Shown here one piece after another: positions 8,380 through 15,947 of a stretch of 48,502 nt of DNA. The stretch's first letter is position 1, and each line of letters starts with the position of its first letter. Location: the NCBI GenBank assembly GCA_024279945.1, contig JAJRRA010000014.1:1-48502 (forward strand), given 5' to 3'. Position numbers and translations under genes: made by a program. Under the pieces are notes generated by a model, which saw only the letters and a program-made list of their open reading frames with translations, did not search any database and had not been told where the DNA came from. The DNA comes from Gammaproteobacteria bacterium. GTDB lineage: Bacteria; Pseudomonadota; Gammaproteobacteria; Xanthomonadales; SZUA-36.

Positions 8380-8773
8380 TACAGGACAACATGTCTGTTG
8401 CAACTGAAGCTAACTTTTAATCTGGATTGTGAAGTCACCGAAGTACCGGTACCGGATACTTATGACATTAGCTACAACGCCGGCATCACCCGGTTCGAAT
8501 ATCCGCCTGGGTCTGCAAGGAGAAGCAACCGCGTGGGTAGACGTTGATTCTACCAATGGGCCAGCCAATTGTTGGGCGAAGGAGAGAATCTTCTCCAGTG
8601 CGGTGGAAGTCGATAACCCCTGCAGAACGCCGCAAGGCCTGACCATGGGCCAGACGACTTCCTGCACGATCACCAATACGGTATTCTATGAAGGAATTCC
8701 GGTACTGAATCGCTATGGCCTGGCTATTTTGACCTTGCTGATGCTGGGTGTTGGATTCCGTCGAATGATCTGA
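8380..8773 (+). pseudogene. Decayed 3' remnant of an IPTL-CTERM surface protein
   Basis: Two frames together read as the end of a secreted repeat protein. Frame A (from 8380) encodes LDCEVTEVPVPDTYDISYNA and a following segment to YPPGS. Frame B (to the stop at 8771-8773) encodes CRTPQGLTMGQTTSCTITNT, then IPVLNRYGLAILTLLMLGVG and a terminal RRMI. The C-V-T-E and C-T-I-T-N pattern resembles prealbumin-like/DUF11-type domains. The proline-containing motif, hydrophobic helix and terminal arginines match an IPTL-CTERM sorting tail. There is no start, and the frame changes around 8520. The call is a 5'-truncated, frameshifted relic. Confidence 0.6.
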
Positions 8774-8794
8774 TCGGCTGACAGGCTTTAATCA

Positions 8795-8834
8795 AAACCC
8801 CCGCAGCAGGTGACTGTTGCGGGGGTTTCTTTTT
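8795..8834 (+). terminator. Rho-independent terminator
   Basis: A perfect 11-bp stem pairs 8795-8805 (AAACCCCCGCA) with 8818-8828 (TGCGGGGGTTT) around a 12-base loop. CTTTTTC follows. It closes the receptor-dehydrogenase operon and its pseudogene tail and insulates the sHdr cluster. Confidence 0.85.
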
Positions 8835-8889
8835 CAATTAGAGTCAAATTTGGCATCAAATTCGCTTTTTACATTAGGATACCGTAATA

Positions 8890-8918
8890 TTTCCAAAAAA
8901 TTCATGATGTAAGATAAT
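8890..8918 (+). promoter_or_regulatory. Weak candidate promoter for the sHdr cluster
   Basis: GATAAT at 8913-8918 is a good -10 hexamer. TTTCCA at 8890-8895 is a poor -35 at 17-base spacing. It lies in an AT-rich stretch 80 bases before dsrE. A start site elsewhere is equally possible. Confidence 0.3.
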
Positions 8919-8998
8919 TATAGGTTGCCTCTCCGAAAAAGCAGCCGTGGAATGGTGACCCCGCTGGTTCGGCAGCAAGAACCTGGAGAAGTTTAAGA

Positions 8999-9376
8999 AT
9001 GGCAGAAAAACTCATCATCATTATGGCAAACACTGATCCCCGCAACGGAGAGGAACTGGGCGCCCCGATTTTCCAGGCCACCGTAGCCGCGGCAATGGAG
9101 TACGATGTAGACGTAATCTGCACCGCCACCTCCGGCCGTCTGATGAAAAAAGGCGTCGCTGAGAAACTGTTTGTCAAGGAAGGCTCACCCAAGTCGGTGT
9201 TGTCATTCATCCAGGATGCGCACGAGGCGGGCGTTAAGTTTTTTTGCTGTTCTCCCAACCTCGATCTGTTTGACATGACGACTGACGATTTGATACCCGA
9301 GTGTGAGGGAATCGTTGGCGGGGCTTACCTGATCGAAGAGGTAATGGAGGAAGACTGTAAAGTTTTGACCTATTAG
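8999..9376 (+). CDS. dsrE3: DsrE3-type sulfurtransferase
   Basis: A 125-residue DsrE/DsrF-like protein. The C-terminal half, KFFCCSPNLDLFDMTTDDL then IPECEGIVGGAYLIEE, is typical of the DsrE3 group, with adjacent Cys83 and Cys84 as candidate sulfur-carrying residues. Related proteins pass sulfane sulfur (as persulfide) between TusA-like carriers and the cytoplasmic sHdr enzyme. Its place as the first gene of an sHdr cluster supports that role. GGAGAAG precedes the ATG at good spacing. The stop codon abuts a MITE-like repeat. No tusA or rhodanese gene is present in the window, so its sulfur donor must be encoded elsewhere. Confidence 0.85.
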   Translation: MAEKLIIIMANTDPRNGEELGAPIFQATVAAAMEYDVDVICTATSGRLMKKGVAEKLFVKEGSPKSVLSFIQDAHEAGVKFFCCSPNLDLFDMTTDDLIPECEGIVGGAYLIEEVMEEDCKVLTY

Positions 9377-9537
9377 GGAGCCGCTGATCTGCTCATGAAC
9401 TCGTATCTTGCGTCTGAAATACCCAGCTTCTGCGTTGCAAATCTTCGCAATAGCGGTGCTATTACGCGCGATTCGCGCCTTGAATCTGAACATTTTAGTT
9501 CGCAATCTACTTCGTCCCTGAACAGATCAGCGGCTCC
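9377..9537. repeat. MITE-like element, locus 1, complete unit
   Basis: A 161-base unit whose ends are inverted: left end GGAGCCGCTGATCTGCTCA, right end (reverse complement) GGAGCCGCTGATCTGTTCA, one mismatch in 19. The interior has two small hairpins: AATAGC-ggt-GCTATT at 9449-9463 and GCGCG-att-CGCGC at 9466-9478. A near-identical copy, differing at only a few bases, is at 14782-14942. It encodes no transposase. Open frames across it on both strands are not credible genes. It begins directly after the dsrE3 stop codon. Confidence 0.8.
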
Positions 9538-9539
9538 TT

Positions 9540-9697
9540 GGATTGCTGATCTGTTCATGAACTCGTATCCTGCGTCCAAAATGCCCAGCTTCTGCGTTAC
9601 GAATCTTCGCAATAGCCAGCTATTACGTGCGATACATGCCTTGAATCTGAACATTTTGAATCACAACCTACTTCGCCCAGAATAAATCAGAGCTTCC
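9540..9697. repeat. MITE-like element, locus 1, degenerate second unit
   Basis: A tandem, diverged copy of the preceding unit. It opens GGATTGCTGATCTGTTCATG and closes with a decayed right end (AATAAATCAGAGCTTCC). The AATAGC/GCTATT hairpin survives with a shorter loop, while the second hairpin has lost pairing. It fills the gap up to the Shine-Dalgarno site of hdrC1. Confidence 0.65.
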
Positions 9698-9710
9698 TTA
9701 GAGGAAAACC

Positions 9711-10454
9711 ATGTCTCACGCACACTCAAGCAGAATACAGCAACATATCGGCGACCCGGTATCGGACAGTCCCGCGCTCGACCGGGACAAATTGGAAGAG
9801 ATTTTCCAGGACATACAGGCGGATATCCGCTATGACCATGAACTGAACGGATGTCTCAATTGCGGCATTTGTACCGCGACCTGCCCTGCTGCACATTACT
9901 ATGATTTTAGTCCGCGCGAGATCGTGCAGTTATTGTGGACAGAAAATCTTGAAGGCATCTACGATGCCATGCAGGAAAAAATCTGGGCCTGTGCCCAGTG
10001 TTATACCTGTGCCGCACGCTGTCCGTTCGAGAATTCACCGGGCGGACTGATTATGCTGATGCGTGAAGCGGCCATCAAGCACGGCATGGAATCTGCCAAG
10101 AACGTGCTGCGCCCCTTTAGCCGGGTGATGTTGAAACTGATTTCCACCGGTAACCAGCTTTCACCGGACATGATCACCGCAGACGGATTTCCGGACTGGG
10201 GCCCCAATATTTCCAAGATTGATGCACCGTTGAAAGTGCTACGCCAGGCCATCCCGGTGCCCACTCTGAACACCACCAAGACCGCCTGGGAAGTCAACCT
10301 GACCACTTCAGTCGAGTTGTACACGATCTGGGAGGAAACCGGCGTACTCGACCAGCTTGAGACCATTGATGAAAACCTCTACGACGTGATCCTCGACATC
10401 ATGGATGAGAAGCGGGAAGACCTCGAAGACTGGGAGGATGAACAGGAAGATTAG
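9711..10454 (+). CDS. hdrC1: sHdr iron-sulfur subunit HdrC1
   Basis: A 247-residue HdrC-like protein with two [4Fe-4S] ferredoxin motifs: Cys48/51/54/58 (CLNCGICTATCP) and Cys94/97/100/104 (CAQCYTCAARCP). The C-terminus is long and acidic. It would pass electrons within the sulfur-oxidising heterodisulfide-reductase-like complex in the cytoplasm. Gene order hdrC1-hdrB1-hdrA-hyp-hdrC2-hdrB2 matches the known shdr arrangement of sulfur oxidisers such as Hyphomicrobium and Acidithiobacillus. GAGGA precedes the ATG. A REP array follows the stop codon. Confidence 0.9.
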   Translation: MSHAHSSRIQQHIGDPVSDSPALDRDKLEEIFQDIQADIRYDHELNGCLNCGICTATCPAAHYYDFSPREIVQLLWTENLEGIYDAMQEKIWACAQCYTCAARCPFENSPGGLIMLMREAAIKHGMESAKNVLRPFSRVMLKLISTGNQLSPDMITADGFPDWGPNISKIDAPLKVLRQAIPVPTLNTTKTAWEVNLTTSVELYTIWEETGVLDQLETIDENLYDVILDIMDEKREDLEDWEDEQED

Positions 10455-10567
10455 TTGTAAGAGGCCGCTTGCGGCCAAGTTGTAAGAGGTCGCTTGCGGC
10501 CAAGTTGTAAGAGGTCGCTTGCGGCCGAAAAGCATAAAGCTGTCGCGCGCAAGCGCGCTCTTACAAA
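10454..10567. repeat. REP/BIME array between hdrC1 and hdrB1
   Basis: Three tandem 25-base units of GTTGTAAGAGGTCGCTTGCG type start at 10454, 10479 and 10504. An inverted unit follows at 10541-10567 (GCGCGCAAGCGCGCTCTTAC). Each unit contains a small palindrome such as GGCCGCTTGCGGCC. The same family occurs at 16416-16499 and 34182-34230. Units are directly adjacent without spacers, so this is not CRISPR. The first unit overlaps the last base of the hdrC1 stop. Confidence 0.8.
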
Positions 10568-10597
10568 AAGAGACTGGAGACACGCAGAGAGCAAACC

Positions 10598-11974
10598 ATG
10601 AACACAGAAAACCCGAATAACGGCAACGGCAACGGTGAACGATTCACCGGCCACGGCGCCGAATGGCGTGACGCCAACCTGAGCCCCGAAGATGCCCGCA
10701 CCGCAACCGCATGGGTCGAGCAGGTCATCAACAAGCGCTCCATGGAAACCAACAAGGATCGCGTGGAAGACGTGCGCGATATCATGTGGCAACTGGAGAA
10801 GGAAGGCGAGATCGTCGTTCACCGGATCAACGATGAACATGCGCCCCGCGTGGCCAAAACAATTTACGGCTGGGACAAGAAAGTGCCGACCCAGCAGTTG
10901 TGGCATCACAAATCCTGTGGTCAGTGTGGCAACATTCCGGGCTACCCGGCGTCCCTGCTGTGGCTGATGAACGAAATGGACATCAAGTACCTGGACGAGA
11001 CCGACCAGACCTCCTGTACCGCGTGGAATTACCACGGCTCGGGCATCGGCAACATCCAGAGCCTGGCGGCGGTGTTCCTGCGTAACTTCCACCAGGCCTA
11101 TGTTTCCGCACGCGCCCAGGGCCTGCCGGACGGTTACTACTATCCGCTGGTGCACTGCGGCACTTCTTTTGGCAATTACAAGGAAGTGCGCGCTTACCTG
11201 CTGCATTCGGCAAAGTTACGTGAGCAGGTCAAGAGAATCCTCGGCAAGCTGGGTCGCCTGGTTGACGGCAAGCTGCTGATTCCGGAAGAAATTGTGCATT
11301 ATTCTGAATGGGTACACATGATGCGCGGTGATATTGCTGAGCGCCAGACCATCGACGTCAGTGCTATCCGCGCCACCATTCATCCAGCCTGCCACGTATA
11401 CAAGATGGTGCCGCAGGATGCGATCTATGATGACAGTATCCTTGGCGGCAATCGGGTTGCGGTGTCCACCGGCATCATGGAAGCGCTGGGCACACAGGTG
11501 ATCGATTATTCCACCTGGTATGACTGCTGCGGCTTTGGTTTCAGGCACATTATTTCTGAGCGTGAGTTCACGCGCTCCTTCTCCATCGATCGCAAGATCC
11601 GGGTCGCGGTGGAAGAAGCGCATGCCGACGTAATGATCGGCCACGACACCGGTTGCATCACCACGCTGGATAAAAACCAGTGGATCGGCAAGGCTGCCGG
11701 AAAGGGTTACAACCTGCCGGTGCTGGCCGATGTGCAATTCGCCGCGATGGCCTGCGGCGCGCATCCGTACAAGATCGTGCAAACCCACTGGCATGCCACA
11801 GCCACCGAAACCCTGATGGAGAAAATCGGTATTGACTGGCAGGCTAAGAAAGTGGAATTTGAATCCTATCTGAAAGAAGTGGAGGCCGGCAGGTTCGAGA
11901 GTCTTTATGATCCGCGTCTCGCCATTACCTCCGGACCGGGCTTTCAAGCCCTCAAGAAAGTCGAGAACGCTTAA
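10598..11974 (+). CDS. hdrB1: sHdr catalytic-type subunit HdrB1
   Basis: A 458-residue CCG-domain protein of the HdrB family. The N-terminal half carries SCGQCGNIPGYPA, TSCTAWNYHGSG and LVHCGTSFGNY. The C-terminal CCG domain has Cys265 (HPACH), Cys310-Cys311 (DCCGFG) and then HDTGC, where the first cysteine of the usual CxxC is Asp350 and only Cys353 remains. A Cys-to-Asp change of this kind is, as I recall, a trait of sHdrB1 compared with methanogen HdrB. The protein would bind a non-cubane iron-sulfur centre and act with HdrC1 on LbpA-bound sulfur. The ATG follows GAGAG weakly. Confidence 0.87.
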   Translation: MNTENPNNGNGNGERFTGHGAEWRDANLSPEDARTATAWVEQVINKRSMETNKDRVEDVRDIMWQLEKEGEIVVHRINDEHAPRVAKTIYGWDKKVPTQQLWHHKSCGQCGNIPGYPASLLWLMNEMDIKYLDETDQTSCTAWNYHGSGIGNIQSLAAVFLRNFHQAYVSARAQGLPDGYYYPLVHCGTSFGNYKEVRAYLLHSAKLREQVKRILGKLGRLVDGKLLIPEEIVHYSEWVHMMRGDIAERQTIDVSAIRATIHPACHVYKMVPQDAIYDDSILGGNRVAVSTGIMEALGTQVIDYSTWYDCCGFGFRHIISEREFTRSFSIDRKIRVAVEEAHADVMIGHDTGCITTLDKNQWIGKAAGKGYNLPVLADVQFAAMACGAHPYKIVQTHWHATATETLMEKIGIDWQAKKVEFESYLKEVEAGRFESLYDPRLAITSGPGFQALKKVENA

Positions 11975-12016
11975 TTCACAAGGTTTCCTGGAACAGAACT
12001 AAATGAGTACATATTC

Positions 12017-13066
12017 ATGGCAAAACCAATCTTGATTGTAGGCGGGGGTCCAGCAGGGCTGGCCGCAGCACACTCACTGGCGACCTTCGGCCAGGCGTGT
12101 TTACTGGTGGAAAAAGAGGACCGCTTGGGTGGTGCGCCCATTCTGGAAGGCTACGCCAAGCTGGTGCCTTCGGGTGAATGGGCAAAAGATGCCATCGGCG
12201 GCATGGTCAGCCGGGTTGAAGAGGCTGAGCTGGTTAACGTCCTAACAAGTACAACCGTGACCTCATTTACCGGCGAAACGGGTAATTTTACCGTGGAGCT
12301 GTCCAATGGTGACCATGTCGAGGTATCAGCATCCATTCTGTGCACCGGTTTCACCCACTTTGATTCCGCCAATAAGCCAGAATGGGGATTTGGTACGTAT
12401 CAGGACGTTGTCACCACCACCCAGGTTGAGCAAATGATCTCTTCCGGCAACGGCGTTCGCTGCCTGTCCGATGGCCGCAAACCCAAACGTGTCGCCATCC
12501 TGTTGTGCGTGGGCTCCCGCGACCGCCAGATTGGCCGTGAATGGTGCTCCAAAATCTGCTGCACGGTGTCGGCTAACCTGGCCATGGAAATCCGCGAGGA
12601 GTTACCCGATTGCCATGTCTACATTTATTACATGGATATCCTCACTTTCGGGCTATTGGAGACCAAGTACTACTGGAGGAGTCAGGAAGAATTCAAGGTC
12701 AAGTACATCAAGGCCCGTATCGCCGAAGTGACTGCCCGGGACGGCAAGCTGATCGTCAAGGGCGAAGACACCCTGGTGAAACGTCCGATTACCATTCCCT
12801 TTGACCTGGTCGTGCACGCCATCGGCATGGATCCGAATCGGGACAATGGAAAAATTTCATCGCTGTTCGGTGTGGATCTGGAGCCCAACGGTTTCCTCGA
12901 CCAGGCCAGCAGCTACTCCTCATCAGGCATGACCAACCGTAGCGGCGTGTTCATTGCCGGCGCCGCCACCGGGCCGGAAACCATTGACGACTCGATCGCC
13001 CAGGGCAAGGCTGCGGCCATGGCTGCACTTGAGCAGCGCCAGGTAGCGGCGCGGCTGGTGGGTTAG
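12017..13066 (+). CDS. hdrA: sHdr flavoprotein subunit HdrA
   Basis: A 349-residue FAD protein. The N-terminal dinucleotide fold shows GGGPAG at residues 9-14 and the acidic end of the second strand in VEKED. A second glycine-rich FAD segment, GVFIAGAATGPETIDDSIAQ, lies near the C-terminus. Cys164, Cys177, Cys181 and Cys182 (LLCVGSRD ... WCSKICC) can bind an iron-sulfur cluster. It is far shorter than methanogen HdrA and lacks its extra ferredoxin domains, as expected for the sHdr type. It is the central subunit linking the two HdrBC pairs. The Shine-Dalgarno signal is weak. Confidence 0.9.
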   Translation: MAKPILIVGGGPAGLAAAHSLATFGQACLLVEKEDRLGGAPILEGYAKLVPSGEWAKDAIGGMVSRVEEAELVNVLTSTTVTSFTGETGNFTVELSNGDHVEVSASILCTGFTHFDSANKPEWGFGTYQDVVTTTQVEQMISSGNGVRCLSDGRKPKRVAILLCVGSRDRQIGREWCSKICCTVSANLAMEIREELPDCHVYIYYMDILTFGLLETKYYWRSQEEFKVKYIKARIAEVTARDGKLIVKGEDTLVKRPITIPFDLVVHAIGMDPNRDNGKISSLFGVDLEPNGFLDQASSYSSSGMTNRSGVFIAGAATGPETIDDSIAQGKAAAMAALEQRQVAARLVG

Positions 13067-13080
13067 GCTGAACCGATCGC

Positions 13081-14019
13081 ATGGTGTCTGTATCCCAATT
13101 TTTGCGTAGCCGGAGCAAGAATGTGCTTGCACGGGCGCCCTTGCAGTCCCAATTGCAGCGACCACAACTGGAATTGAGCGGCCCCATCCTCAAGCACGCC
13201 TTTGAGACCCTGGTGTCGGGCGCTGAATCACAGGGCGGTGTGGAATACTGGATTGATGCCCTGAAGCTCAAACAGCAGATGTTCCAACAGGCGCTGGGGC
13301 AGGGTCATCCCGCGGATTTACCGCTGGATACCTTCAAAAGCCTGTGCGCATTCATGGTCAGTGTGCGCCGGCGGGTCGGCTTTCACCTGGAAAAACCCGC
13401 CTACGGGGAAATGGTCGAAGCAATCGTGGAACTGCTTTCAGGCTACCAGGACACGGCCACCACGGATGCCCGCATGACATCCTTCTGTGCCCGTTTTCCA
13501 CAAGACAAAAAGCATCGCTGGGTGAGGGATCTGGCCGCTGAAATTCTCCATGGCGTGGACCCGGAGCGTTTCCCGCTGATGGGCCGCTGGATCTGGGCCC
13601 GAAAAGCCAATACCGGCGTGATCCGTGAAATCTGGTTTGCTGATGACATTGACAACATCACGCTCAATGTACCGGACGGATTTGCCACCCACCTGATGTT
13701 GCGGGAAGAATTGAGCCAGTTCCTGAGCGCCAACGGCGTTTTTCGCGACATGATCTGGTATGTCGATCTGCTGTGCGCAAAAATTTATGCGGATTACATC
13801 GGCGCCCAGGGCGGTGTTTACCTGCGGGCCGATTTTTCTGCCCCGGATGACCCGATGGAACATACTCGTCGCCTGCTCGGCCTGGACGGGGTGCGAACCG
13901 GAACCCGCCGCACGAGGCTCAAAGCCATTAATGGCGAAGCTTTTCTCATTGACGATTCCAATCTGCTGGAAAGCGGCACCAGACCAACAAATAACCCTGT
14001 ATCTGAATCACTGGATTAA
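13081..14019 (+). CDS. sHdr-associated conserved protein (Hyp)
   Basis: A 312-residue soluble protein without recognised motifs, rich in charged and aromatic residues (for example FPLMGRWIWARKANTG and REIWFADDIDN). It is known only as the conserved hypothetical gene between hdrA and hdrC2 in sHdr clusters; that position is exactly met here (14 bases after hdrA, 2 bases before hdrC2). A role in assembly or as a structural subunit of the complex is inferred from this constant linkage. No cofactor motif is visible. Confidence 0.75.
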   Translation: MVSVSQFLRSRSKNVLARAPLQSQLQRPQLELSGPILKHAFETLVSGAESQGGVEYWIDALKLKQQMFQQALGQGHPADLPLDTFKSLCAFMVSVRRRVGFHLEKPAYGEMVEAIVELLSGYQDTATTDARMTSFCARFPQDKKHRWVRDLAAEILHGVDPERFPLMGRWIWARKANTGVIREIWFADDIDNITLNVPDGFATHLMLREELSQFLSANGVFRDMIWYVDLLCAKIYADYIGAQGGVYLRADFSAPDDPMEHTRRLLGLDGVRTGTRRTRLKAINGEAFLIDDSNLLESGTRPTNNPVSESLD

Positions 14020-14021
14020 CC

Positions 14022-14792
14022 ATGCCCATTCATGAAAAATCACTGATACGCCCTGAGAACCTGCACGTTCAGGAAAAGATCGAAGTCGATGGCATCGATG
14101 TATCCGGGCACTGGAGTACTTTTATCGAGAGCCGTGTGGTCACCGACTACAATGAGCAGCTCGAAGAGGAAATCGCCTCCCTGCCCGGCGGCGAGTTCAT
14201 CCACCGCTGCTGGCAATGCGGCTCCTGCACCAACTCCTGCACAGTCAATGCAATTAACGCAGATTTCAACCCGCGCTACTGGATCTACCTGATCCGCACC
14301 GGCATGGAAGAGGAACTGCTGCGCGACAAGGAAATCATCTGGCAGTGCGTGTCGTGTAACAAGTGCACCTACGCCTGTCCGCGCGATGTGGTGCCCGAGG
14401 GTGTGATGAAGGCAACCAGCCACTGGCTGGAGCTCAAAGGCCACACACCCAAATCAAACTCAATGATCTTTGACGAGATTTTTAGTGAGCAGGTGATCGC
14501 CAACGGCAAAATCGAGGACGGGCGCACCGTGCGGCGTTTCTTCGCGCGTACCGGCCAGGCCATGATGCAGCCCTGGATGGTTGAAATGATTAAAAGCATG
14601 ATGCGCAATTTGCCCATCGGCATGCTGACCCGCCTGGGCCTGGCCAATTTCATCACGCCGCGCACCAGCGACTGGTCCGGCGCCCGCGATGCCATGAACG
14701 AATACATCGCCGAGCGCGAAGCGCATCACCGCAAAGCACTGCGCCTGGACGATCTGGTCCAGATGGCTGAATCTGAAGTAGGGAGCCGCTGA
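14022..14792 (+). CDS. hdrC2: sHdr iron-sulfur subunit HdrC2
   Basis: A 256-residue HdrC-like protein with two [4Fe-4S] motifs: Cys63/66/69/73 (CWQCGSCTNSC) and Cys109/112/115/119 (CVSCNKCTYACP). Like HdrC1 it moves electrons in the sHdr complex, here paired with HdrB2. The last codons (GGG AGC CGC TGA) lie inside the left end of a MITE-like element. The element therefore supplies the present stop codon and three C-terminal residues. Confidence 0.9.
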   Translation: MPIHEKSLIRPENLHVQEKIEVDGIDVSGHWSTFIESRVVTDYNEQLEEEIASLPGGEFIHRCWQCGSCTNSCTVNAINADFNPRYWIYLIRTGMEEELLRDKEIIWQCVSCNKCTYACPRDVVPEGVMKATSHWLELKGHTPKSNSMIFDEIFSEQVIANGKIEDGRTVRRFFARTGQAMMQPWMVEMIKSMMRNLPIGMLTRLGLANFITPRTSDWSGARDAMNEYIAEREAHHRKALRLDDLVQMAESEVGSR

Positions 14793-14970
14793 TCTGCTCA
14801 TGAACTCGTATCTTGCGTCTGAAATGCCCAGCTTCTGCGTTGCAAATCTTCGCAATAGCGGTGCTATTACGCGCGATTCGCGCCTTGAATCTGAACATTT
14901 CAGCTCGCAATCTACTTCGTCCCTGAACAGGTCAGCGGCTCCTTGGATTGCTGATCTGCTCATGAACTCG
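14782..14970. repeat. MITE-like element, locus 2 (complete unit plus truncated second unit)
   Basis: A complete 161-base copy (14782-14942) of the element at 9377-9537. It has the same inverted ends and internal hairpins and differs at only a few positions. It is followed by about 28 bases (GGATTGCTGATCTGCTCATG...) equal to the start of the second unit seen at locus 1, then a sudden break at about 14970. Both loci thus share the same unit-plus-second-unit layout. It sits between hdrC2 and hdrB2. Confidence 0.8.
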
Positions 14971-14996
14971 CGGTGTTATTAACAGGAAAGAGATTT

Positions 14997-15947
14997 ATGT
15001 CTGACAAGAAAGCTAAATCCAAGCAGGAAAAGTACGGGGAAGTCGCTTACTACCCCGGCTGCGCGCTGGAAGGCAGCGGTTCTGCCTATAACAGTTCAAC
15101 CAAGGCTCTTGGCAAGGCGCTGGGCCTGAAAATCAAGGAAGTGGAGAACTGGAATTGTTGCGGTGCGATGGAGGTGAAAAACATCGATCCGAAGCTCCAG
15201 ACCTATCTGTCTTCCCGCGTCATGTCCATTGCCGCCAACAAGATGAACATGAATACCGTGATGGCGCCCTGCAACGGTTGCTACCACAATCTGAAAAAGG
15301 CCGAGTACGATCTGGCGAATGATGAGGAAACTATGGAAGTCGTAGACCGGCTGTCGAAAAAAGCCGGCCATGAAACCTATGAGGCCGGCCAGGTTGAGAC
15401 CATCCATGCGCTGGACTGGGTCAAGGAAACCATCGGCGAAGAAGGCCTGAAGGAGCGGGTAAAGAACTCACTCGATGGCATCAAGATCGCCAATTATTAT
15501 GGCTGCATGTACACCCGCCCCCGGCATATTTTCCCCGAGAAAGATGCCGGACCCGGCAGCGAGTCCACTTCCCAGCCTCATTTCATGGACGACCTGCTGG
15601 AGGCCGCAGGGGCCGAAAACGTAGAGTTTCCCCTCAAAACGGCCTGTTGCGGCGGAGCCCACACCCTGTCGGACAGCGATACTTCCACCCTGCTGGTGAG
15701 CAATATCCTGCAAGCCGCCGAAGCCGCCGGTGCGGAAGTTATCGCGACGGAGTGCCCAACCTGCCACAGCGGGCTGGAAATGCATCAGATTCGTGCCGAG
15801 AAAACACTGGGTATCAAGACAAATGTAAAGATTATCTATTTCACCCAGTTGCTTGGTATGGCCCTGGGGCTTAAGCCAAAGGCGGTCGGTTTACATGAAA
15901 ATATTTCAAATTCCTTCGACTTTGTAAAGGAAAAGGGCCTGGCTTGA
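14997..15947 (+). CDS. hdrB2: sHdr catalytic-type subunit HdrB2
   Basis: A 316-residue HdrB-like protein with two full CCG motifs: Cys22, Cys54-55, Cys92/95 (PCNGC) and Cys170, Cys217-218, Cys253/256 (ECPTC). These bind non-cubane [4Fe-4S] centres that carry out disulfide or persulfide chemistry in HdrB. Unlike HdrB1, both CxxC pairs are intact. The start at 14997 is chosen because AGGAAAGAG lies just upstream; a GTG at 14973 is in frame but lies next to the repeat. It is the last core subunit gene of the sHdr set. Confidence 0.9.
   Translation: MSDKKAKSKQEKYGEVAYYPGCALEGSGSAYNSSTKALGKALGLKIKEVENWNCCGAMEVKNIDPKLQTYLSSRVMSIAANKMNMNTVMAPCNGCYHNLKKAEYDLANDEETMEVVDRLSKKAGHETYEAGQVETIHALDWVKETIGEEGLKERVKNSLDGIKIANYYGCMYTRPRHIFPEKDAGPGSESTSQPHFMDDLLEAAGAENVEFPLKTACCGGAHTLSDSDTSTLLVSNILQAAEAAGAEVIATECPTCHSGLEMHQIRAEKTLGIKTNVKIIYFTQLLGMALGLKPKAVGLHENISNSFDFVKEKGLA

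Follow-up and report, generated by a model that had tools for sequence, protein, structure and literature searches.

The DNA analyzed here (the window; 48,502 nucleotides of contig JAJRRA010000014.1, from a gammaproteobacterium of the SZUA-36 lineage) carries a gene cluster whose Pfam matches, in the order DsrE, Fer4, CCG, Pyr_redox_2, none, Fer4, CCG, and GCV_H, are consistent with the sulfur-oxidation cluster that we take to be named sHdr. Two gaps of this operon, one between a dsrE-like gene and hdrC1 (locus 1) and the other between hdrC2 and hdrB2 (locus 2), hold copies of the same short palindromic sequence, in which an initial annotation had seen a miniature inverted-repeat transposable element (MITE) inserted twice. 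We conclude, with a probability of about 0.92, that the repeat is a nonautonomous MITE of the IS5 group. Related copies lie at unrelated sites in other genomes, carry IS5-like ends, and are flanked by 4-bp duplications; other sHdr loci lack the element; and complete IS5 elements with similar ends occur in the same bacterial order.

A repeated palindromic unit in two operon gaps

Within the 48.5-kb window, one family of direct repeats pairs 9374–9565 with 14779–14970 (192 nt, 97% identity). The two remaining families of at least 40 nt, found with 14-nt seeds over the whole window, are parts of the same MITE plus a third unit, and no direct repeats of at least 40 nt unrelated to the MITE were found. 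The core of the match is formed by unit A at locus 1 and unit A′ at locus 2, which are 98% identical over 161 nt (coordinates in Table 1), and the third unit, B, is diverged and aligns to A with 84% identity over 9545–9690. The inverted ends pair at 18 of 19 bases at locus 1, as read in the sequence and by blastn, and at 17 of 19 at locus 2, as read in the sequence. Locus 1 runs TTAG, A, TT, B, TTAG, AGGAAAACC, and the ATG of hdrC1. These measurements agree with the initial annotation, which had described two near-identical 161-base copies with 19-base inverted ends and a second unit truncated at locus 2 after 28 bases. An assembly artefact is an unlikely source of the repeat because several bases differ between copies and the surrounding gene order is as in relatives.

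The fold of the unit pairs nearly its full length. No shuffled sequence out of 200 was as stable as unit A folded as DNA (z −6.1), and the same was true of A′ folded as RNA (−69.2 kcal/mol, z −7.4). Unit A aligns to the reverse complement of A′ with 68% identity over 165 columns; when A is compared with its own reverse complement, the blastn alignment is confined to the 19-nt ends. Two open reading frames (ORFs) of 96 and 93 aa that span the A–B pair have no Pfam match, as expected from the earlier claim that the element lacks coding capacity.

Copies of the element in relatives

The MITE was present in 10 of 41 genomes (the own genome and 40 relatives) and in at least 23 of 398 genomes of the order, the own genome included; the latter count is a lower bound, at most two candidates having been scored per genome. 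Within this one order, its range takes in at least three families (f1, f8, and f9). We then used a covariance model, R1, built from 16 copies and run on ten genomes chosen because earlier searches had matched them. R1 matched all ten: at least 150 times each in G158 and G177 (150 of 150 scored, from 958 and 749 first-look candidates), 40, 39, 29, 25, 20, and 14 times in G050, G054, G008, G023, G053, and G139, and 3 times each in G052 and G004. These matches are not counts of copies, as one palindromic copy may match on both strands. Counting each place once, we found 90 full-length copies of 156–181 bp in 60 fetched stretches that were hand-picked from the best listed R1 matches rather than drawn at random; G158 and G177 account for 68 (40 stretches) and other genomes for 22 (20 stretches). 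We base the family assignment on these 90 separately placed copies. G158 and G177 are draft genomes of 2.1–2.4 Mb with a heavy load of the MITE.

Dispersal at unrelated sites is thus clear in relatives and partial in the own genome: there, one operon carries three units plus a stub, besides which we found a 38-nt fragment and short matches to the ends (52 for the end pattern at up to two mismatches vs. 5 for the reversed pattern). The genome-wide count proposed in the initial annotation accordingly gave few copies at home and many at unrelated sites in relatives. Neither a lack of copies elsewhere nor the same sequence as ordinary spacer in syntenic relatives, the two outcomes that the annotation had named as contrary, was found. 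Among 72,556 plasmid records, one had a 54-nt match. A literature search with partial coverage, mostly of titles and the beginnings of abstracts, found no paper describing this MITE family, the 13-base end piece included.

Several variant forms were seen alongside these copies. Differing inserts of ∼45–50 bp lie at or near the central loop in two copies (L021:1368–1574 and L009:1373–1578). In family alignment A1, the longest invariant stretch is the center, AATAGC(2–3 nt)GCTATTA, which is better conserved than the ends. Miniature palindromes of 27–28 bp, resembling GGAAACTCTGATTTATTCAGAGCTTCC, occupy 7 of 11 inspected end sites (L137 and L139–L144, all in G004), and four of them (L137, L140, L142, and L143) have exact 4-bp duplications; a similar miniature palindrome in the own genome (L123) has no exact 4-bp duplication. 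The G004 miniatures look like deletion footprints, since two longer forms in that genome (L135 and L136) contain TTATTCAGAG as a direct repeat, and its removal would yield such a 27–28 bp remnant. Other palindrome-like elements with the same type of end measure 264–514 bp in G033 (L150, L151, and L153) and 272–315 bp in G004 (L145 and L147–L149). Judged by eye, their bodies differ from that of the MITE, and several MITE families may share one end type.

Target-site duplications, tandems, and stop codons

Exact 4-bp duplications flank 51 of the 90 copies. Identical 4-mers were found at 42 of 68 copies in G158 and G177 (shuffle mean 9.9, maximum 24) and at 9 of 22 elsewhere (mean 3.6, maximum 8); other duplication lengths (2, 3, 5, 6, and 8) reached at most 3 copies per set. 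The commonest duplications were TTAG, CTAA, CTAG, and TTAA, and 41 of the 51 (34 of 42 and 7 of 9 in the two sets) follow YTAR, the target duplication given for IS5 in the available text of PMC10359306. With TTAG on both sides of the A–B pair at locus 1, the search for target-site duplications suggested in the initial annotation was answered at home as well as in relatives. The 60 stretches also contain seven adjacent pairs of units, all in the same direction, with gaps of 4 nt in five pairs, 3 in one, and 8 in one with degenerate ends, for which another placement gives 4.

The left junction at locus 1 coincides with a stop codon because YTAR contains TAA or TAG. The initial annotation had both copies beginning at a stop codon; this holds at locus 1, where TAG (9374–9376) is in frame, but not at locus 2, where TAG is out of frame. 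A stop codon lay in the target of 15 of 90 insertions compared with 62 of the 1,129 YTAR sites that these stretches contain (odds ratio 3.4, p = 0.0003), and 30 of 90 insertions vs. 706 of 1,129 YTAR sites fell inside ORFs, with the caveat for both comparisons that ORFs were a simple longest-ORF guess and insertion sites are not independent. For sites outside guessed ORFs only, the figures were 15 of 60 vs. 62 of 423 (p = 0.057). We therefore set aside a specific preference for stop codons: the excess is not significant outside ORFs and largely reflects gene avoidance. The simplest reading is that YTAR supplies TAA or TAG and that insertions within genes are lost.

IS5-type ends and a candidate transposase partner

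The end consensus of the MITE in relatives is near GGAACCTCTGATTTATTC. In G026, a 320-aa protein matching NF033581 (340 bits) is enclosed by GGAACCTCTGATTTATCC on the left and GTTGTTCAGAGCTTCC on the right, each bordered by CTAG, and the left end agrees with the MITE family consensus at 17 of 18 bases. G142 and G146 carry 1,163-bp elements with perfect ends, GGAGATCCTGATTTATTA, duplications TTAA and TTTA, and 319-aa transposases (NF033581 matches of 319 bits). The ends in G026, G142, and G146 share CTGATTTAT with the MITE consensus; a further locus, G038, for which we have the ends only, reads GGAGGGTCTGAACAAGTC with duplication CTAG. The initial annotation had proposed to look for a transposase with the same ends; complete IS5 elements with similar ends exist elsewhere in the order, but none was found in the window's family.

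Among the NF033581 and PF01609 loci inspected in the own genome, no complete partner was found. A C-terminal NF033581 relic (C29:86433–86549, 31 bits, E = 3e-7) is followed at 86717–86734 by an end with two mismatches to the pattern, one base from TTAG; a 409-aa protein scores below the NF033581 cut-off and has no matching end; and none of the four PF01609 loci has a pair of ends. An end-like sequence near one PF01609 gene (L206) was rejected for having no partner end. Also rejected was a candidate in G158, a transposase fragment with an end-like sequence ∼0.46 kb away: this sequence agrees at 17 of 18 bases with the G158/G177 end but seems to continue as MITE ends do, and a tblastn search with the G142 transposase found no gene there. 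In the window's lineage, the partner appears to be defunct, to have been lost, or to be absent from the draft assemblies.

sHdr loci without the element and the altered end of hdrC2

By blastn, none of 79 named sHdr loci contains the MITE. The dsrE–hdrC1 gap, 334 bp in the window, does not exceed 79 bp at any of the 60 loci where it was measurable; of the remaining 19, 15 are missing a gene and 4 have only a distant dsrE-like match. The hdrC2–hdrB2 gap, 216 bp in the window, was measurable at 76 loci (3 lacked it), with 74 at or below 48 bp, one at 84, and one at 261; gap sizes were estimated from tblastn ends. The 14 sHdr loci of the window's own family likewise have no MITE, the hdrC2–hdrB2 junction being visible in 13. 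The same-genus genome G002, which holds L067 from a Lysobacterales metagenome-assembled genome, has gaps of ∼56 bp (L067) and ∼48 bp (L356) on two contigs, again without the MITE; no match to hdrC2 was obtained in G001, the other genome of this genus.

At locus 2, the hdrC2 frame reads GAA GTA GGG AGC CGC TGA, so that the gene ends inside the MITE. The predicted protein ends in ESEVGSR, vs. ETELEAGAAK and a stop in G002, in line with the earlier observation that the second copy supplies the end of hdrC2. The MITE explains the two oversized operon gaps and the altered HdrC2 C terminus without invoking regulation. Between hdrA and hdrC2, a 312-aa gene at 13081–14019 has no Pfam match; in 13 of the 14 family loci, hdrC2 has a related gene upstream.

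Table 1. Features at the two insertion loci (window coordinates)
Feature	Position	Strand	Basis or remark
dsrE-like gene, upstream of locus 1	8999..9376	+	ORF, PF13686
Left target-site copy TTAG	9373..9376		9374–9376 is the TAG stop of the dsrE-like gene; same 4-mer at 9698–9701
MITE unit A, 161 bp, long imperfect palindrome	9377..9537	+	Repeat match, fold, family alignment
TT spacer, 2 bp, between A and B	9538..9539		Tandems in relatives: mostly 4 bp
MITE unit B, diverged, same orientation, 84% to A	9540..9697	+	Highest identity to a relative's copy: 89% over 153 nt
Right target-site copy TTAG, then AGGAAAACC and ATG of hdrC1	9698..9701		Read in sequence
hdrC1-like gene, downstream of locus 1	9711..10454	+	ORF, Fer4 domains
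hdrC2-like gene, last codons in MITE	14022..14792	+	ORF, Pfam, relatives
GTAG to the left of A′, probable target site; right-hand copy gone	14778..14781		Inference
MITE unit A′, 98% to A	14782..14942	+	Repeat match, fold
TGA stop of hdrC2, within MITE	14790..14792	+	ORF 14022–14792, frame read
TT spacer and first 26 nt of unit B; remainder of B and native hdrC2 tail missing	14943..14970	+	Repeat match, tails in relatives
hdrB2-like gene, downstream of locus 2, AGGAAAGAG upstream	14997..15947	+	ORF, CCG domain

Weighing the alternatives

Several observations weigh against an IS5-group MITE. Outside the window's units, blastn found only the 38-nt fragment in the own genome, so wider mobility there would rest on short, degenerate end matches, and the assemblies are drafts. 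An exact duplication is wanting at 39 of 90 copies (with the left boundary of copies ending in CCC shifted one base by the script), locus 2 has no right-hand duplication, and the A–B spacer at locus 1 is 2 nt. The G026 end agrees less well with the window's units than with the family consensus (12 and 13 of 18 for A and 16 of 18 for the right end of B, the left end of B being degenerate), and of 24 scanned transposase loci, only that of G026 has an end at one mismatch or fewer. No NF033581 protein above the cut-off was found in 39 genomes of the window's family or in G158 and G177, which hold most copies.

The units might instead be RNA modules, long hairpins in the polycistronic sHdr mRNA that RNase III would cleave or that would protect RNA ends, thereby setting subunit ratios. 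Both copies lie in same-strand gaps of the operon and the predicted RNA fold is strong. There is precedent, in the available text of PMC10969869, in Correia elements cut by RNase III and in ERIC sequences at gene 3′ ends that affect transcripts. The arms also pair better within copies than between them: over the outer 18 nt, 15.97 vs. 15.70 (sd 0.06) in 67 of the 68 G158/G177 copies and 13.14 vs. 12.23 in 28 other copies, neither reached in 2,000 shuffles, and over 12 nt, 10.93 vs. 10.67 (0 of 2,000) and 8.93 vs. 8.50 (11 of 2,000). Native folds are stronger than chimeras (−54.6 vs. −49.7 and −51.8 vs. −41.6, respectively). This is a weak sign of a kept hairpin: the G158/G177 effect is small and could arise from shared ancestry, and the other set mixes subfamilies. 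An RNA module is nevertheless unlikely, given that the MITE family occupies many unrelated places and was not found in these gaps of other sHdr loci, whether among the 79 named or the 14 of the family. Accessibility of the ribosome-binding sites is somewhat lower at locus 1 and higher for most bases at locus 2, and we dropped the idea of a consistent effect on the two sites. Rfam over 8700–15500 gave only two weak leader matches, below gathering scores and outside the MITE; promoter and terminator scans gave 6 and 8 sites vs. 4.4 and 8.1 in shuffles, none within the MITEs. A bolder version, in which the palindromic body is selected as an RNA or single-stranded DNA hairpin with arms kept complementary and both insertions were co-opted to set sHdr subunit ratios through processing or attenuation, we regard as very unlikely. 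The hairpins would be part of the operon mRNA, and an effect on it is plausible by analogy, but any function of the MITE in the operon is probably incidental, and nothing that we found points to a special role in sulfur oxidation.

The second copy would need no transposition if it arose by segmental duplication or gene conversion from one spacer to the other. Such an event would account for a 192-nt match that begins with a shared TAG and extends beyond the end of the unit into B, but it leaves unexplained the TTAG on both sides of the locus 1 pair and the duplication-flanked copies elsewhere, and we hold it to be improbable overall, although it may have produced locus 2 from locus 1. Least credible is a GTAG-tagged repetitive extragenic palindromic (REP) sequence moved by a RAYT (single-strand Y1) transposase. 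Locus 2 does have GTAG ahead of the palindrome, and such REPs often give a TAG stop to flanking ORFs (available text of PMC3733652). The flanking 4-mer varies, however, and in 51 of 90 copies its left and right versions are identical, as in a duplication rather than a one-sided tag; the full-length copies are far longer than the 20–40 bp of REPs; and their ends resemble those of IS5 elements.

Proposed history of the insertions

Taking the repeat as an IS5-group MITE, we propose the following course of events. An IS5-family DDE transposase of the NF033581 type would act in trans on the MITE ends with a 4-bp staggered cut. The A–B tandem would have inserted between the dsrE-like gene and hdrC1 at TTAG, a YTAR sequence sharing bases with the dsrE stop codon, and a second A–B pair would have inserted into the 3′ end of hdrC2. 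Since the similarity of the two loci continues into B, the pair was probably copied together, with most of B and the native hdrC2 tail deleted later at locus 2. The initial annotation had suggested movement as a tandem. The paired TTAG flanks at locus 1 and the direct tandems in relatives are in its favor, but the flanks would also fit sequential insertion, and recombination is a further possibility. Both insertions may persist since a usable stop codon and ribosome-binding site remain, and any effect on the mRNA would be a by-product. Trans-mobilization, the common movement of A and B, the sequence of steps, and the reason for persistence are all inferred.

Comparison with known systems

ERIC and Correia elements have other end sequences and duplicate TA. 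In the available text of PMC10969869, they resemble the present element in being small palindromic or inverted-repeat elements able to sit at gene ends and alter mRNA. GTAG-tagged REPs are likewise palindromic and often supply TAG stops but, according to the text available for PMC3733652, measure 20–40 bp, bear a one-sided tag, and depend on a RAYT transposase; the present copies are 156–181 bp, with variable, two-sided 4-mers.

A close likeness by description, not by sequence, is to MITEPsy1 of Pseudomonas syringae, an IS5-type MITE with ends like those of ISPsy2 that was caught transposing and duplicates CTAG or YTAA (PMC3189936, in the text available). Both are small and noncoding, with inverted ends, a 4-nt duplication, and a probable IS5 transposase acting in trans. 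MITEPsy1 is 100 nt long with 18-nt ends, whereas the present copies are longer, pair over almost their full extent when folded, and are also found as direct tandems. With the IS5 elements of its own order (G026, G142, G146, and G038), the MITE has in common ends that start with GG and a 4-bp duplication (CTAG, TTAA, TTTA, and CTAG, respectively); three of these differ in carrying a transposase (320, 319, and 319 aa), and the G038 ends have their own sequence, as given above. The element is short and noncoding, with inverted ends, target duplications, and empty sites in relatives (not every locus showing both junctions), as in MITEs; and it shares its ends with an IS5 element of identified transposase (G026, NF033581) and its YTAR target with that group. 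It represents a new MITE family of IS5 type, abundant in one genus, and offers a simple reason why such elements can start at stop codons: YTAR holds TAA or TAG, and the gene stays whole after insertion. The repeat is a genuine mobile element, though of an unexceptional kind.

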